DNA of 37,927 nucleotides from positions 1 through 37,927 of the forward strand of contig JAFTWV010000025.1 in NCBI GenBank assembly GCA_017465155.1, given 5' to 3'. The DNA is from Clostridia bacterium (GTDB taxonomy: Bacteria > Bacillota > Clostridia > Christensenellales > Aristaeellaceae). The notes below the pieces were generated by a model that was not told the origin of the DNA, did not search any database, and saw only the letters and a list, made by a program, of their open reading frames with translations. This document shows positions 188-10,552 of the stretch, piece after piece. Within the stretch, counting starts at the first letter, position 1; every line of letters begins with the position of its first letter. The translations under genes were made by a program, and so were the position numbers.

Positions 188-670
188 TTACCGGACAGTG
201 GTTTTGACGGTGAACGGCACGCCCCACATGTAGTAGGTCACGACGACCTCGCGGATGGAATGCATGTTCACGTCGGTGAGGAGGGTGGCGGTGGCATCAG
301 CAGTGCCGCGGGCAGGAAGCGCAGCGCTGACGGAAGAGCCAATTTGCAGCACGTCCCCGGCCATGGGGCTGATCTGCAGTTCTACCATGTCTGCAGGAAC
401 GTAACAGTCGTTACGCAGGCGGATGGTGTAGGTGAGAAACTGGTAGTCCTCTGCGTTGGTGAGTTCGCCCTGTGCGATGAAGGGGGTGCCGACCACTGCG
501 CCCAGACGCATCTGTGTGCGGAGCTGCTCAAACAACTCGGGCTGCGCAGATGCTTCCAGCGCAGTAACGCCGGTAGCTTCGACAACTACGTTAGCGGTCA
601 TATACAGCCAGCCGACGCCTGCCAGCGAAGCAATGAGGATCAGTACGGTCAGGATGGCAAAGAATTTCAT
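188..670 (-). CDS. Single-pass membrane-anchored protein, third gene of a ZorAB-like operon
   Basis: A 160-residue protein that I do not recognise. It begins MKFFAILTVLILIASLAG, an uncleaved signal anchor or membrane span at about residues 4-26. The rest is an extracytoplasmic domain rich in beta-prone stretches ending in VTVRs-like strands, with no cysteine pair or catalytic motif visible. The ATG at 670 is preferred over the TTG five codons upstream because AAAGGTGA sits at proper spacing before it. It lies 77 bases after the OmpA-type gene on the same strand, with a hairpin between them, and is the last gene of the operon. Its consistent topology with the channel proteins suggests it acts on the outer face of the same envelope complex; this is inference from position only. 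The only visible alternative is an unrelated secreted protein. Confidence 0.75.
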   Translation of the reverse strand: MKFFAILTVLILIASLAGVGWLYMTANVVVEATGVTALEASAQPELFEQLRTQMRLGAVVGTPFIAQGELTNAEDYQFLTYTIRLRNDCYVPADMVELQISPMAGDVLQIGSSVSAALPARGTADATATLLTDVNMHSIREVVVTYYMWGVPFTVKTTVR

Positions 671-693
671 AGCGTCACCTTTCAAACAAGTTG

Positions 694-729
694 GGAAAGG
701 GAGGGACTCCTGGCGGAATCCCTCCTTCC
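694..729 (-). other. Intercistronic hairpin
   Basis: Between the second and third genes of the reverse operon, 719-729 (TCCCTCCTTCC on the forward strand) pairs with 694-706 apart from a two-base bulge. The reverse-strand sequence after it is CAACTTGTTT, a poor U-run. It may lower expression of the last gene or protect the upstream message; it is not a convincing full terminator. Confidence 0.4.
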
Positions 730-747
730 TTGATATGCGGGTATGGG

Positions 748-1791
748 TTATTCGCCCTTCAGCAGACGATTCATTTCCTCAATCATTTCTGCATCCTTCA
801 GGCTGAATTTGAATTCCACGCGGCGGGAGGCGTCCTGATTGACAACGGTGGTACCGGGATAGTAAATCAAGTCGGATTCGCTGCGGCCTGTGGCGGTGAG
901 AATCTGCTCAAGCATCTTGCGCTTCTCGGAGCCTTCGGGATACATGCTCAGCACATACTCGGCTACCTCCAGCGCGCGGTTCTGAGACAGCTTGAGGTTG
1001 TTCAGGTAGGTACCCTGATCATCCGTGTGGCCCTCGATAATGATTTCGCCCAGATAATCGCTGTATTCCGGACGGAGCAGCACCTCGAGATACACGGGGA
1101 TGAAGCGGTTGAGCAGATACTGGCCGTCCGACATGATGTCGGAGGAGTTGGTCTTGAAGAGGACGGCGCTGTCCAGCACGATGTCACCCGTATTGGGATC
1201 GACGGCGGCGCTCAGGTTGGCGCGGGAGAGGGACGTGGACAGGTCGCTGATGATCTGCGTCCTCATGCCGACCATATCCTCAATTTTGTCGGTCTGGCTG
1301 TTGAGTGCCTGCTGCTTGGCATTGAGTGCTTCGATAGCGGCCTGCAGGGCGATCTCTTTGTTGGCGAGGTTGGTTGCCATGGTGCTCAGCTCGGTTTCCT
1401 TGTCGTCCAGTTTGCCCTGCAGGATGATCAGCTGATTCTTCTGGTTGGCAAGGCTGCTTTCAAGGGTGATCAGCTGCTGTTCCTTCTCTTCCAGCGTGGT
1501 CTGGATGACGATGATCTGCGCATTCTGATGATCCATGGTCACCTGCTGCGAGGCGATCTGCAGCGTCTGAGCGTCAAGCTGAGACTGCTGCACGCTGATG
1601 AGCGCCTTCTGCTCATCCAGCTCGGCGGTCTTGGTTTCCATCATCGTGAAATACTGGTACAGGATGACGCAGAGCATCAGCACGAACATCAGCAGAAGGG
1701 CACACATCAGGTCGGAGTAACTGATCCAGCTGGCGCCTGCGTTGCCGGCGCCTGTGCCGCTGCGGCTGTTATGGATGCGTTGGCGGGCCAT
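748..1791 (-). CDS. MotB/OmpA-type stator protein, ZorB-like
   Basis: A 347-residue envelope protein. The N-terminal part SWISYSDLMCALLLMFVLML holds one membrane span with an aspartate (residue 27) at its start, the position of the proton-binding Asp of MotB, ExbD/TolR and ZorB proteins. A coiled coil of about 140 residues with regular E/Q/L heptads follows, and then an OmpA-like peptidoglycan-binding domain (about 215-347) with EGHTDDQG near residue 255 and LSQNRA, whose Asp and Arg contact diaminopimelate in this family. The start at 1791 is chosen because AAGGAGG lies seven bases upstream; the ATG at 1797 sits too close to it. The gene begins two bases after the stop of the channel gene, so the pair is translationally linked. 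Classical ZorB is shorter, without so long a coiled coil. A flagellar role is unlikely since no flagellar gene is nearby. Confidence 0.85.
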   Translation of the reverse strand: MARQRIHNSRSGTGAGNAGASWISYSDLMCALLLMFVLMLCVILYQYFTMMETKTAELDEQKALISVQQSQLDAQTLQIASQQVTMDHQNAQIIVIQTTLEEKEQQLITLESSLANQKNQLIILQGKLDDKETELSTMATNLANKEIALQAAIEALNAKQQALNSQTDKIEDMVGMRTQIISDLSTSLSRANLSAAVDPNTGDIVLDSAVLFKTNSSDIMSDGQYLLNRFIPVYLEVLLRPEYSDYLGEIIIEGHTDDQGTYLNNLKLSQNRALEVAEYVLSMYPEGSEKRKMLEQILTATGRSESDLIYYPGTTVVNQDASRRVEFKFSLKDAEMIEEMNRLLKGE

Positions 1792-1793
1792 GA

Positions 1794-3320
1794 TCATTCC
1801 TCCTTGGCGGGGATGGACTGCTTCAGCTGGGTCAGCAGGCGCTGCAGCTCAGCGGTCTGCTCGGCAGTCGTGCCGCTGACGCCCGAGGCGGACAGGCTGT
1901 CGATTTTTTCTGTCAGAGCGGCGATGAGGGTCGTCATGTTCTGATCAAACATGCCCAGCGCCTGACTCAGGCCGCCGACCACATTCTGTACGAAGCTCTG
2001 GCAGCTTGCGGACAGCTCCTGACCGGCGCTGCTCATGGAGGCAGCCACCTGTGTGAGCTGCTGTCCGTTGGCAGCGGCAGACTGCTGCACGCCCGCGATG
2101 GACTTTTCGCTTTGGGCGGTGAACTGACGGATGCTGCCGAGGAGGACCTGATGGCTGTCGGTGACCTGCTGGAGCGCCTTGGACTGTGCGGCGTTCATCT
2201 GCTGCATCTTGTCCAGCAGGGAAGCGGTGGACTGCTCGAAGCGTTCGTCGCGGCGGCGGGCGTCGCCCAGCTCGCGCACATACTGTTCAAAATGGTTCAT
2301 CACGTCCGTTGATACAGTATGCAGCTGTTTCACATCCCCGACGATGGTGCCCGCAGCCTGCAGAGCCTGATTCAGGCGATCCACAGAAACCTGCTGGTTC
2401 TGGTTGATTTCTGTCATCGTGCGGCCCAGCTGGACGAACTGATCATTCAGAGACATGTTCATCTGCTGAACGAAGCTGGTGACGATGCGGCCTACGCCGT
2501 CCACCTGCGCGCGGGTTGCCCCGACGAGGAAATTGTCCATTGCCTGCGCAACGGGCTGCATCGCGCGGGACACAGAGGTTTCCATCGCTCCAGCAAGCTG
2601 GCCGGGAAGCACCTCTGTGAGGCTTGAGAGCATGTGATTGGAGTCCTGATTCTGGCAGATCAGCTGCACGTCATTATCCAGCGGACGGGACATTGCCAGC
2701 GAAGTGAAGCATTCAACGAAATCGTCGATCGCCCGGTAGCTTGAACCCTGCAGGGTACGGTTGAGCACGTTGAAGATGATTGAGCAGCTCACGCCTGCGA
2801 CTGAAGTGCCGAAGGCGAACTGCATGCCGGAGAGCAGAACCGGGATGCCCTCGATGATTTTCGTTGAGTCTGTAAAGTCGAGGCCGCCCAGACCGCGCAC
2901 CATGCCGATGAAGGTGCCCAGAATGCCAAGGCTTGTCAGCAGGCTGGGAATCAGTTCAGCCAGCTGAGCGTTGCCGGGGCCGTGGGTGACAGTATCGTCG
3001 TTGATGTACTCCTCCACGTTGCAGGGAAGGCCGCGGCGATCAAGCTGCTCGGCATTCTGAAGAAATCGCAGCCAGGAGCCTTTGAGACGGTTGCCCATGA
3101 AACGCTTTTCCTGCCACACGGGCGTACCCTGTCGGGTACCTGCGTCCTGCTGAAGACGGCGGATTGCCCGGCGCAGCGCGCGGGTGGTGCCCATCAGCGG
3201 AAGCAGGCACTTGAACAGACCGATGAGCATCATCATTGCCTCGGCCGCATAGATGAGGAAATCGACCAGATTGGGCAGCAGGTCATTGATCAGGGTGGTC
3301 ATATCGGTCATCGATGGCAT
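1794..3320 (-). CDS. MotA/TolQ/ExbB proton channel protein with long coiled-coil tail, ZorA-like
   Basis: A 508-residue inner membrane protein. Membrane spans are visible at about 17-44, 122-144 (LIPSLLTSLGILGTFIGMV) and 157-186; the latter two form the MotA/ExbB channel signature. A cytoplasmic loop of about 75 residues lies between spans one and two. From about 230 to the end there is an uninterrupted Gln/Ser/Ala-rich helical coiled-coil tail, which MotA and ExbB lack but ZorA of Zorya antiphage systems has, where the tail projects into the cytoplasm and signals to nuclease effectors. Start ATG at 3320 with AGGAGG seven bases upstream; a promoter is at 3397-3425. Together with the OmpA-type gene it should form an ion-driven 5:2 type motor anchored to peptidoglycan. 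Whether it serves defence is open: no ZorC, ZorD or ZorE gene is present. Confidence 0.85.
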   Translation of the reverse strand: MPSMTDMTTLINDLLPNLVDFLIYAAEAMMMLIGLFKCLLPLMGTTRALRRAIRRLQQDAGTRQGTPVWQEKRFMGNRLKGSWLRFLQNAEQLDRRGLPCNVEEYINDDTVTHGPGNAQLAELIPSLLTSLGILGTFIGMVRGLGGLDFTDSTKIIEGIPVLLSGMQFAFGTSVAGVSCSIIFNVLNRTLQGSSYRAIDDFVECFTSLAMSRPLDNDVQLICQNQDSNHMLSSLTEVLPGQLAGAMETSVSRAMQPVAQAMDNFLVGATRAQVDGVGRIVTSFVQQMNMSLNDQFVQLGRTMTEINQNQQVSVDRLNQALQAAGTIVGDVKQLHTVSTDVMNHFEQYVRELGDARRRDERFEQSTASLLDKMQQMNAAQSKALQQVTDSHQVLLGSIRQFTAQSEKSIAGVQQSAAANGQQLTQVAASMSSAGQELSASCQSFVQNVVGGLSQALGMFDQNMTTLIAALTEKIDSLSASGVSGTTAEQTAELQRLLTQLKQSIPAKEE

Positions 3321-3396
3321 AAGCGATCCTCCTGTACGGTAGCTTCTGTTATGATCATCCAGGCGTCAGGATGGGATTGTCATAAGTACACATTCT

Positions 3397-3425
3397 ATTT
3401 TACATGATTTTCTCCGTCTTGTAAA
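3397..3425 (-). promoter_or_regulatory. Sigma-A type promoter of the ZorAB-like operon
   Basis: On the reverse strand TTTACA (3420-3425) and TAAAAT (3397-3402) are separated by exactly 17 bases, each five of six to consensus. The predicted transcript would start near 3390 and give a leader of about 70 bases before the ATG at 3320. Confidence 0.65.
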
Positions 3426-3964: not shown

Positions 3965-4180
3965 TAGATGTTGATGGAATCAGAGGTGCGCAGCGCCGGG
4001 TACCGCGGCGGAGGACAGGCTTCCGCAGATGCCGCGTGAAGGAGCGATGCGCCGAAAGGCAGGAGGGAAGCCGACACTCCTGTGCTTGGGTGCAGGCCGG
4101 ACAGGTCTGCAGCTGTCATCGGCCGGCAGGACGCCGGTCCGGCGGAGCGCTGGTTCATGGGCGGACAGGGCGATCAATGC
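3965..4180 (+). promoter_or_regulatory. Lysine riboswitch (L box)
   Basis: The leader of asd carries the ordered conserved blocks of the lysine riboswitch: AGAGGTGCG (3982-3990), GGAGCG...GCCGAA (4041-4056), CTGTCA (4113-4118) and GGAGCGCTGG (4144-4153), separated by paired arms. The closing P1 helix can form between TTGAT (3971-3975) and ATCAA (4173-4177). In this family lysine binding stabilises P1 and favours a downstream terminator. The genes that follow make DAP and lysine, which fits end-product control. Boundaries are approximate. Confidence 0.85.
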
Positions 4181-7325: not shown

Positions 7326-9137
7326 ATGGATGAAATCAAGAATCCGAGAAAACCGGTCATATACTATTATGTGATCGTCCTGCTGGTCATCTTTCTGTTC
7401 AACGCGCTGGTGATGCCCATGATTGATACCCAGAGAATCGTTGAGGTAGACTACGGGAAGTTCATGGACATGACCTTGAACGGCAATGTCGGGCTGGTGA
7501 ATGTGGAGTCCAATCAGATCCTCTTCACCGACAAAGAGGAAAAGCAGGTCTACCGGACTGGCCTGATGTATGATCCGGAACTGACGCAGCGCCTGTATGA
7601 AAATGGGGCTACCTTCTCCACAGAAATCGTGGATGAGATGTCACCCTTTCTGGCGTTCTTTCTCAGCTGGGTGCTGCCGATCCTGATGTTCACGATCATC
7701 GCCCGGGTGCTGACGAAGCAGATGAGCAAGCGGATGGGCGGCAACGCGATGTCCTTTGGCATGGGCAAATCCAACGCGAAGGTATATGTCAAGTCCTCTG
7801 CTGGGATCAAATTTGACGATGTGGCAGGCGAGGACGAGGCGAAGGAGAACCTGCAGGAGATCGTTGACTTCCTGCATGATCCGTCCAGGTATCGCGAGAT
7901 CGGCGCTGCGATGCCCAAGGGGATTCTGCTGGTCGGACCTCCCGGTACAGGCAAGACCATGCTGGCCAAGGCTGTTGCGGGTGAGGCAAATGTACCCTTC
8001 TTCTCCATTTCAGGCTCTGAATTTGTGGAGATGTTCGTCGGCATGGGTGCATCGAAGGTACGAGATTTGTTCCGGCAGGCCAAGGAAAAGGCACCCTGCA
8101 TCGTCTTTATTGATGAGATCGACGCCATCGGTAAGAAGCGTGACGGCGGAAGGCTTGGAGGCAATGATGAGCGTGAGCAGACCCTGAATCAGCTGCTGAC
8201 GGAAATGGACGGCTTTGAGTCATCCGGCGGGGTTATCATTCTTGCGGCGACAAACCGTCCTGAGTCTCTTGATCCGGCGCTGACCCGTCCGGGACGTTTC
8301 GATCGTCGCGTGCCAGTGGAGCTTCCTGACCTCAAGGGCCGCGAGGCCATCCTGCGCGTCCATGCCCAGAAGATCAAGGCGTCTCCTGACATTGATTACG
8401 CTGCAATCGCCCGCATGGCCTCCGGAGCCTCCGGTGCAGAACTGGCCAATATTGTCAACGAGGCTGCGTTGAGAGCTGTACGTGACCATCGCACAGAAGC
8501 GATGCAGTCTGACATGGAGGCAGCCATCGAGGTCGTCATCGCTGGCTATGAGAAGAAGAACGCCATTCTTACTGACCGGGAGAAATCCATCGTGGCTTAT
8601 CACGAGATCGGACATGCGCTGGTGGCTGCTCTGCAGGATCACTCTGCGCCTGTGCAGAAGATCACCATTGTTCCGCGAACTTCGGGCGCGCTGGGCTATA
8701 CGATGCAGCTTGACGAGGGGAATCATTACCTGATGAGCCGCGAGGAGATCGTCAATAAGATTGCCACCTATACCGCAGGCAGGGCAGCGGAAGCGCTGGT
8801 CTTTGGCAATGTCACCACCGGTGCGGCTAATGACATTGAGCAGGCCACAAAGCTGGCCCGCGCCATGATTACCCGCTACGGTATGAGCGATGAATTCGGC
8901 ATGGTTGCCATGGAAACGGTTGAGAATGCCTACCTTGGCGGCGATGCATCGCTTTCCTGCTCATCGGAAACACAGGCACGCATCGATACGCTGGTTGTCG
9001 ATCTTGTGCGCTGCCAGTATGACCGGGCGATGAAGATCCTCACCGAAAACCGCATGAAGCTCGACCAGCTGGCAAAGCATCTCTATGAAAAGGAAACCAT
9101 AACCGGCGAGGAATTCATGACCATCCTCAACGCATAA
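7326..9137 (+). CDS. ftsH: ATP-dependent zinc metalloprotease FtsH
   Basis: Membrane-bound AAA+ protease that extracts and degrades misfolded membrane proteins and some regulators. Order of the 603 residues: first span (about 12-32), a short external domain, second span (about 105-127), AAA domain with Walker A GPPGTGKT at 204-211, Walker [13 protein letters not shown], second region of homology [20 protein letters not shown], then the M41 peptidase with HEIGH (426-430) and the third zinc ligand Asp503 in AANDIEQAT. Start ATG at 7326 is preceded by GGGAGGT. The protein is a little shorter than the common 640-650 residues, mainly through a short C-terminal tail. It stands alone, away from the tilS-hpt neighbourhood usual in Firmicutes, and is followed 27 bases later by a DUF308 gene. 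It could be an additional FtsH paralogue. Confidence 0.94.
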
Positions 9138-9792: not shown

Positions 9793-9932
9793 GGCAGAGT
9801 AGCTGCTGGCGCGTCAAGTGTTCATGAACGGGGAGTTGTCATGAAACGAAGGGGACCTCATCTGCTTTCTTTTCAGCCCGATGGGAAGAAGCTGATATGG
9901 TTTCCGCGGTGCCAGCGGCGCATCCCGCTGCT
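9793..9932 (+). promoter_or_regulatory. Tetrahydrofolate (THF) riboswitch
   Basis: The folT leader matches the THF riboswitch consensus in order: AGAGTAG (9796-9802), GCGTCAAGTG (9811-9820), AACGGGGAGTTG (9827-9838), ACGAA (9846-9850), GCGGTG (9906-9911) and GCATCCCGCTGC (9919-9931 region). P1 forms between 9794-9797 and 9928-9931, and P2 between GCTGCTGG (9802-9809) and CCAGCGGC (9912-9919). The P3 arm (about 9850-9905) is longer than in the best known examples. The family binds reduced folates and usually turns folate transport off when they are abundant; the gene controlled here is a folate transporter subunit. Confidence 0.88.
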
Positions 9933-9994: not shown

Positions 9995-10552
9995 ATGCAA
10001 AAAAAGAAAAACGTTTTCTCGATCCAGATGATCACCTTCACTGCGATGTTGACGGCCCTTCAGATTGTGCTGGGCAATCTGCTGCAGGTTCCGCTGCTGG
10101 GGAAGCAGTACAATCTGGGGCTGCTGCCGATTGCTGCATCTGGGGCGCTGCTGGGCCCGCTTCCTGCTGCCATTGTCGGTGGTCTGGGGGATTTCATCGG
10201 CGCGCAGCTGTTCCCGGCGGGAGCCTATTTCCCCGGCTTCACGCTGACAAATGTGCTGGCAGGTCTTGCCTGCGGTCTGGTGCTGCACCGGTGGAAGCCC
10301 ACGGTGCTCCGGGTATTTTTTGCGGTAGCGGTATCGCTGCTGATCACCTGGCTGCTCAACTCTTACTGGCTGAGTATCCTCGGATTCGTTCCGGGCAGAA
10401 GCTTCTGGGTCTGGGCGTCTGTGCGTGCGGTGAATTACCCGATTGAGCTGGTGGTGAACGGCGCCTTGGCGTTTGTGACGCTGATGCTGCTGACACGAGC
10501 TGCCCATGTGCTGCCGCCGGATATGCGGCTGACCCGCGGAAAGGATGCGTAA
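9995..10552 (+). CDS. folT: Folate ECF transporter S component
   Basis: Substrate-binding membrane subunit of an ECF-type vitamin importer, specific for folates in this family. The 185-residue protein has about six membrane segments. The region GPLPAAIVGGLGDFIGAQLF followed by PAGAYFPGFTLTN is the FolT signature. An N-terminal Gln/Lys-rich start and TFTAMLTALQIVL carry the Ala-rich first helix that docks on EcfT. Start ATG at 9995 with AAGGAGG eight bases upstream. A THF riboswitch precedes it, independent support for the substrate. The ATPase and scaffold subunits it needs are encoded at 28.4-31 kb in the same window. nth follows after two bases. Confidence 0.9.
   Translation: MQKKKNVFSIQMITFTAMLTALQIVLGNLLQVPLLGKQYNLGLLPIAASGALLGPLPAAIVGGLGDFIGAQLFPAGAYFPGFTLTNVLAGLACGLVLHRWKPTVLRVFFAVAVSLLITWLLNSYWLSILGFVPGRSFWVWASVRAVNYPIELVVNGALAFVTLMLLTRAAHVLPPDMRLTRGKDA

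Follow-up and report, generated by a model that had tools for sequence, protein, structure and literature searches.

We describe here a three-gene operon that encodes a motor of the ZorA-ZorB type in a Clostridia bacterium (contig JAFTWV010000025.1). The window analysed is the entire contig, 37,927 bp in length, from an assembly that is 68.5% complete and comprises 2.80 Mb. On its minus strand, a promoter-like site is followed by a zorA-like gene, a zorB-like gene and a third gene for a small protein (Table 1). In the literature examined, ZorAB is presented solely as part of a defence system, Zorya. In the bacterial family of the window's own genome (hereafter the host family; all genome counts include that genome), ZorAB and the third protein are near-universal, vertically inherited genes, and the pair would probably form a housekeeping, 5:2 ion-driven motor at the cell wall of these single-membrane gut Clostridia.

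The three open reading frames (ORFs) have the placement and strand assigned to them in an earlier reading made from the letters alone (the sequence-only reading), and the promoter that it placed ahead of zorA is present as a consensus match. Promoter-type sites were observed 6 times in the first 4.3 kb, with 1.4 expected. The zorA and zorB genes overlap by 4 bases. Between zorB and the start codon of the third gene lies a gap of 77 bases, and immediately 5′ of this ATG stands the purine-rich stretch AAGGTGA; an alternative TTG start would lengthen the third protein from 160 to 165 residues. Given that only 187 bases remain between the third gene and the contig end, the completeness that had been claimed for the operon is not demonstrable inside the window. 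It is supported, however, by three same-genus relatives with longer contigs (L032 to L034), in which the gene after the third gene lies on the opposite strand, and these back an operon end at the third gene.

By hydropathy, ZorA has three spans (residues 18-36, 120-138 and 168-186) followed by a cytoplasmic tail of about 300 residues, and ZorB has a single hydrophobic span carrying Asp29, a coiled-coil-like stalk of about 130 residues and an OmpA-type peptidoglycan-binding domain. When the pair was compared with PADLOC profiles, the best matches were ZorA1 (E 3.8e-26) and ZorB1 (E 1e-67); Pfam placed ZorA in MotA_ExbB and ZorB in OmpA (E 1.5e-10). In PDB profile searches, ZorA matched 8vvn (1.4e-13) and 8qyd (2.4e-6), and ZorAB entries ranked first for the pair, above ExbB and flagellar MotS. 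Both core subunits of Zorya were thus recognized by PADLOC and PDB, although the curated NCBIfam cut-offs were missed (antiphage_ZorA_2, 75.9 versus 100 bits; ZorB1, 70.2 versus 400 bits). The profile, PDB and hydropathy results confirm the ZorA/ZorB architecture that the sequence-only reading had described, and closest matches to flagellar MotAB or ExbBD, which it had named as evidence against itself, did not occur. Judged by these comparisons, the pair is to be classed with ZorA/ZorB and not with MotAB or ExbBD.

When positions were counted by hand along the alignment rows, T136 and S173 of ZorA aligned with T147 and S184 of 8qyd, and Asp29 of ZorB aligned with D26. T136, T172 and S173 were invariant in 36 of 36 ZorA relatives and Asp29 in 18 of 18 ZorB, and the OmpA-domain residues of ZorB were also invariant among the aligned relatives. 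Two marks of a 5:2 ion-driven motor, the Thr/Ser ring of the channel and the membrane Asp of the B subunit, were therefore found. The T172 position is occupied by Thr in the Na+-bound Shewanella ZorA, by Ala in S. kujiense type II and by Gly in E. coli; PMC11890865 describes Na+ bound in Shewanella ZorA and a more proton-like site in S. kujiense type II. Because the host ZorA has kept Thr172-Ser173...Ser180, as in the Na+-bound Shewanella protein, its sequence suggests that Na+ may drive the host-family motor.

Profile searches of 130 host-family genomes detected ZorA in 123 (47 of 50 genera), the third protein in 114 (46 of 50 genera) and c5, a single-span protein of about 180 residues that follows zorAB in a sister clade within the family, in 122; ZorA, the third protein and c5 occurred together in 105. 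More than one ZorA stretch was matched in 10 of the 123 genomes (a hand count, and partly split genes). Across the order, ZorB was found in 16 of 200 genomes, namely that of the window, a further 12 from the host family and, at lower scores, 3 of other families (E 1.7e-23 to 2.1e-9). ZorB-like matches in 142 of 291 genomes of the class ran from E 1.8e-68 down to weak OmpA or coiled-coil similarity and are not counted as this system. Host-family ZorA formed one clade with a support of 0.991 (the tree was re-rooted on E. coli MotA, and supports may be displaced by one branch).

Descent was assessed by comparing tree distances with those of Ffh in 29 of 30 chosen genomes, G049 being dropped for want of a full-length Ffh. 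The correlation was 0.846 for ZorA, 0.777 for ZorB and, in 28 genomes, 0.85 for the third protein, and in each case 0 of 2000 permutations reached as high a value; when the genome with a split zorA was left out, ZorA and ZorB gave 0.852 and 0.773. Across four same-genus genomes, the ratio of nonsynonymous to synonymous substitution rates (dN/dS) was about 0.13-0.35, some pairs being close to saturation at synonymous sites, and selection on the operon genes is, by this estimate, purifying. Because the tree distances track the housekeeping gene ffh and dN/dS is low, these genes behave as core genes. According to PMC11890865, Zorya is differentially distributed, as is typical for anti-phage systems; the distribution of ZorA in the host family was not patchy in that way, and it was congruent with Ffh.

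The third protein consists of an N-terminal single-span anchor and an outside domain that ends in a (V/I)(T/S)YYxWGxPF-type motif. No Pfam, PADLOC or NCBIfam family matched it at an accepted score and a profile search of the PDB returned no match under E 0.29, which bears out the earlier statement that it belongs to no recognised family; a search for it in phages also gave no match. Among 43 members, family matches were weak and scattered (FixG_C, which is Ig-like, in 2 of 43 with a best E of 0.0026, DUF6174 in 2, CBM49 in 2 and others singly), and an Ig-like beta-sandwich might be guessed as the fold. As a single query, the third protein matched 99 of 200 relatives, including 15 of the 17 congeners of the window's genome; across the class it matched 3 of 291, one of them the window's genome itself and the other two low-scoring fragments (E 3.6e-5 and 8e-4) that lie within far longer frames. 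The third protein is host-family-specific but separable from zorAB. The sequence-only reading had counted absence of the third gene from orthologous loci as a point against it, and the result is divided: the gene adjoins zorAB in 65 of the 111 genomes that have both, whereas the remaining 46 showed no such adjacency, some of these perhaps because of contig breaks. In one genome (G073; L046:9187-9681 / L255:15687-16181), the third gene is present with no adjacent zorA or zorB, unlike in four congeners.

Gene order was compared in the 128 host-family genomes that have at least one of these genes (the other 2 of the 130 have none). The zorA and third genes lay on the same strand within 2.5 kb in 65 genomes, and zorA and c5 did so in 33; c5 lay within 6 kb in 6, zorA stood beside neither gene in 19 (some maybe owing to contig breaks), and 5 had no detected zorA. 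In no genome did both the third gene and c5 stand beside zorAB, and in the loci fetched zorB sits between zorA and whichever of the two is present. Loci in which c5 lies beside zorAB or near it formed one clade of the ZorA tree (support 0.994), which also includes L173, where c5 is on another contig; the remaining host-family loci, third-linked and some unlinked, grouped at a low support of 0.554. Homology between the third protein and c5 was not supported (hhalign probability 0.6%). The c5 copy of the window's own genome is on another contig (C129; L196:5525-6064), away from zorAB, and has a weak SnoaL_4 match below the cut-off (E 1e-4). Next to zorA, a MarR-like regulator gene was seen in L041, L045, L048, L170, L176, L177 and L178 (Pfam-checked in two); it is divergent from zorA in five loci and lies upstream on the same strand in L176 and L178.

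The sequence-only reading had reported no ZorC, ZorD or ZorE, and this was upheld in wider searches. When these proteins were taken from verified Zorya loci, no match at E 1e-3 was found in 42 zorAB loci (697 kb) or in a 46-locus set (645 kb), and control loci were matched; the two sets overlap in some contigs, and neither ZorF nor ZorG was used as a separate query. All records of the 46-locus set are metagenome-assembled or uncultured and go under the labels Clostridia, Clostridiales, Eubacteriales, Christensenellaceae, Christensenella or Bacillota; in many, the sample name refers to a ruminant (goat, sheep, deer, yak). A full-length clostridial ZorD (L134) had no full-length match in the 130 host-family genomes. 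At E 1e-20 this query matched helicase-core stretches only, with 25-38% identity over residues ~465-981 of 1150, in 102 of the 130 genomes.

We consider it probable, from these combined data, that the operon serves a housekeeping motor. The genes to its right in the window (asd, dapA, dapB, ftsH) are likewise housekeeping genes. By the model of the solved ZorAB structures, five ZorA would surround two ZorB, ions would cross the ring formed by ZorB Asp29 and ZorA Thr136-Ser173, the OmpA domain of ZorB, carried on the long coiled-coil stalk, would fix this subunit to the wall, and ZorA with its cytoplasmic tail would rotate relative to the wall. Its use would most likely be to couple ion flow to mechanical work or to wall-cytoplasm signalling, in wall growth or envelope upkeep. 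The third protein, and perhaps c5, may be partners of the motor outside the membrane, gating it or loading it, and the ZorA tail may act on a further partner; both suggestions are conjecture. That the third protein is a direct partner of the motor we rate as slightly less probable than its contrary, and for c5 adjacency by itself is a weakened argument: a dihydrouridine synthase gene follows c5 in 10 of 20 loci with c5 away from zorAB and in several zorAB-c5 loci, so that the link between c5 and the motor could be partly accidental.

Several observations weigh against a housekeeping motor with these partners. ZorA occurs without the third protein in 5 of 5 genomes of genus g10, and 3 genomes carry the third protein without a detected ZorA; the Ffh tree shares only 13 of 26 splits with ZorA (12 of 26 with ZorB; the shared splits include the c5 clade); and true Zorya loci with effectors are found elsewhere in the same class (L133 and L134, type I; L143, type II) and branch near the host family, although with low deep support. 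The absence of the third gene from g10, together with its separation from zorAB in 46 of the 111 genomes, agrees with the gene being a bystander that has ended up next to zorAB, on its downstream side, in one part of the host family, with ZorAB alone as the machine. So does its position in other surroundings: in 7 of 18 regions around unlinked third genes, the gene and a polA-coaE cluster are divergent, and slt is present in 6 of them (Pfam on L154), and in L086 two metabolic genes sit between zorB and the third gene. Adjacency has nonetheless been held in 65 genomes despite changing surroundings, and zorB and the third gene were adjacent in 45 of the 46 loci of the second set, a search that was begun from a third-protein motif; we regard a bystander as unlikely, if still a serious contender.

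A defence role was the other use that the sequence-only reading had proposed, as a new Zorya-like variant. The closest PADLOC matches are Zorya subunits, and the nearby true Zorya loci also count in favour of a defence system kept as a core gene; its effector would be encoded elsewhere in the genome or be of a novel type, and the third protein and c5 would sense damage that phages do to the wall. Near-universal, vertical inheritance within one family, unlike the spread reported for Zorya in PMC11890865, leaves a new defence variant unsupported; with no ZorC, ZorD or ZorE near zorAB, and with the ZorD query limited to the helicase core, we find this reading improbable. The alternative in the same earlier text, an ion-powered motor with a different use, is judged the better of the two. 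A flagellar stator was ruled out by the finding of FliG_C in 0 of 130 host-family genomes (control search positive in 4 of 14 known genomes), and an outer-membrane energiser in the role of ExbBD/TolQR by Omp85 in 0 of 130 (control positive in 7 of 14); because FliG and Omp85 were not found, the motor is neither of these. A motor linked to surface motility or pili, instead of wall upkeep, draws on L131, which together with L132 holds the ZorA closest to the host family from outside it. In L131, pilB/pilT/pilC-like genes come after those for ZorA, ZorB and an EH-like protein; L132 holds genes of matching size that were not scanned. No pilus gene was seen among the scanned zorAB neighbours of the host family, most neighbours not having been scanned, and PMC12694931 describes the closest cultured relatives of its strain, Aristaeella among them, as non-motile, their membership of the host family being unproven. 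We hold a pilus link to be very improbable.

A housekeeping motor of this kind would offer a natural setting in which to study ZorAB alone, since it is vertically inherited and without known effector, flagellar rotor or outer-membrane machinery detected. More broadly, ZorAB-type motors could serve single-membrane Clostridia primarily as housekeeping machines of the envelope (here four-part, with ZorA, ZorB, the third protein and c5), and Zorya defence could have arisen by the addition of nuclease effectors; we offer this tentatively, as a rather doubtful proposal. Whether defence or housekeeping came first becomes testable. PMC12505986 excluded ZorAB from its phylogeny as a remote homolog. No paper on effector-less core ZorAB motors was found in the open PMC literature, where most subscription papers are outside coverage. 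Profile-based annotation may score such genomes as carrying a partial Zorya.

Elsewhere in the window, a lysine riboswitch and a tetrahydrofolate (THF) riboswitch were recognized (Table 1), and the energy-coupling factor (ECF) S component behind the latter is plausibly a folate transporter. Ten ORFs to the right of the operon were scanned, comprising asd, dapA, dapB, ftsH, DUF308, the ECF component, an HhH-GPD glycosylase, an Asp/Glu racemase-like protein, an EF-G-like protein and one without a match. An IetA/TRIP13 defence assignment from PADLOC matches at 7326-9137 was rejected, as this ORF is an FtsH-type AAA protein; the only remaining PADLOC matches among ten neighbours scanned were the helix-turn-helix ones of L032:6288-7070.

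Table 1. Positions of the operon, of other features of the window and of ZorAB arrays at other clostridial loci
Feature	Position	Strand	Basis
zorA-like motor subunit, 508 residues	1794-3320	(-)	ORF call; PADLOC ZorA1, PDB 8vvn/8qyd matches
zorB-like subunit, 349 residues	748-1797	(-)	ORF call; PADLOC ZorB1, Pfam OmpA
Third gene, 160 residues from ATG at 670	188-670	(-)	ORF call; no accepted family
Promoter-like site TTTACA-17-TAAAAT upstream of zorA	3397-3425	(-)	Consensus match only, 10/12 positions
Lysine riboswitch ahead of asd-dapA-dapB, divergent from zorA	3973-4160	(+)	Rfam, 60 bits
THF riboswitch ahead of ECF transporter S component (9995-10552)	9793-9932	(+)	Match of 74.7 bits
ZorA-ZorB-EH-like, then T2SSE, T2SSE, T2SSF	L131:3900-11634		Pfam; EH match E 0.005, below cut-off
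ZorA-ZorB-TPR-like arrays	L136:4758-8387, L138:4696-8200, L144:4208-7669, L145:4150-7542, L147:4204-7623		Several other clostridial families

ZorAB pairs of other kinds were also encountered. The EH-like protein of L132 is 59% identical to that of L131, and the latter, used as a query, had no match at E 1e-3 in the 42 and 46 zorAB loci. In the ZorA tree, L131 and L132 are sister to the host family (0.996), with low support for deep branches, and the ZorB tree puts them elsewhere. In L136 to L139 and L144 to L147, ZorA-ZorB stands beside a protein of 300-325 residues, for which Pfam found TPR in L136 and L145 and none in L138 (three scanned); these TPR-like arrays are apparently a second ZorAB type without known effector. 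ZorB-like matches were present in 11 genomes of family f71.

When compared with known systems, the host-family motor is most like Zorya type I ZorA/ZorB (8qyd, 8vvn; PMC11890865), with which it shares the subunit architecture, the Thr/Ser ring of the pore, the ZorB Asp, the OmpA domain and the long ZorA tail; it differs in being family-wide and vertical, in having no ZorC or ZorD nearby, in scoring below the NCBIfam ZorA/ZorB cut-offs and in the added coiled-coil-like stalk of ZorB. With MotAB it has in common a MotA/ExbB channel and an OmpA-type B subunit, but the sequence match is weaker and the host family has no detected FliG. ExbBD and TolQR are related ion-driven motors (PMC12505986); there, the OmpA-type B subunit and the lack of detected Omp85 set the host family apart. 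The ZorA-ZorB-TPR-like arrays share the ZorAB-type pair, the coiled-coil ZorB and an extra adjoining gene, whereas they form a separate ZorA branch and encode a next protein of about 300-325 residues.

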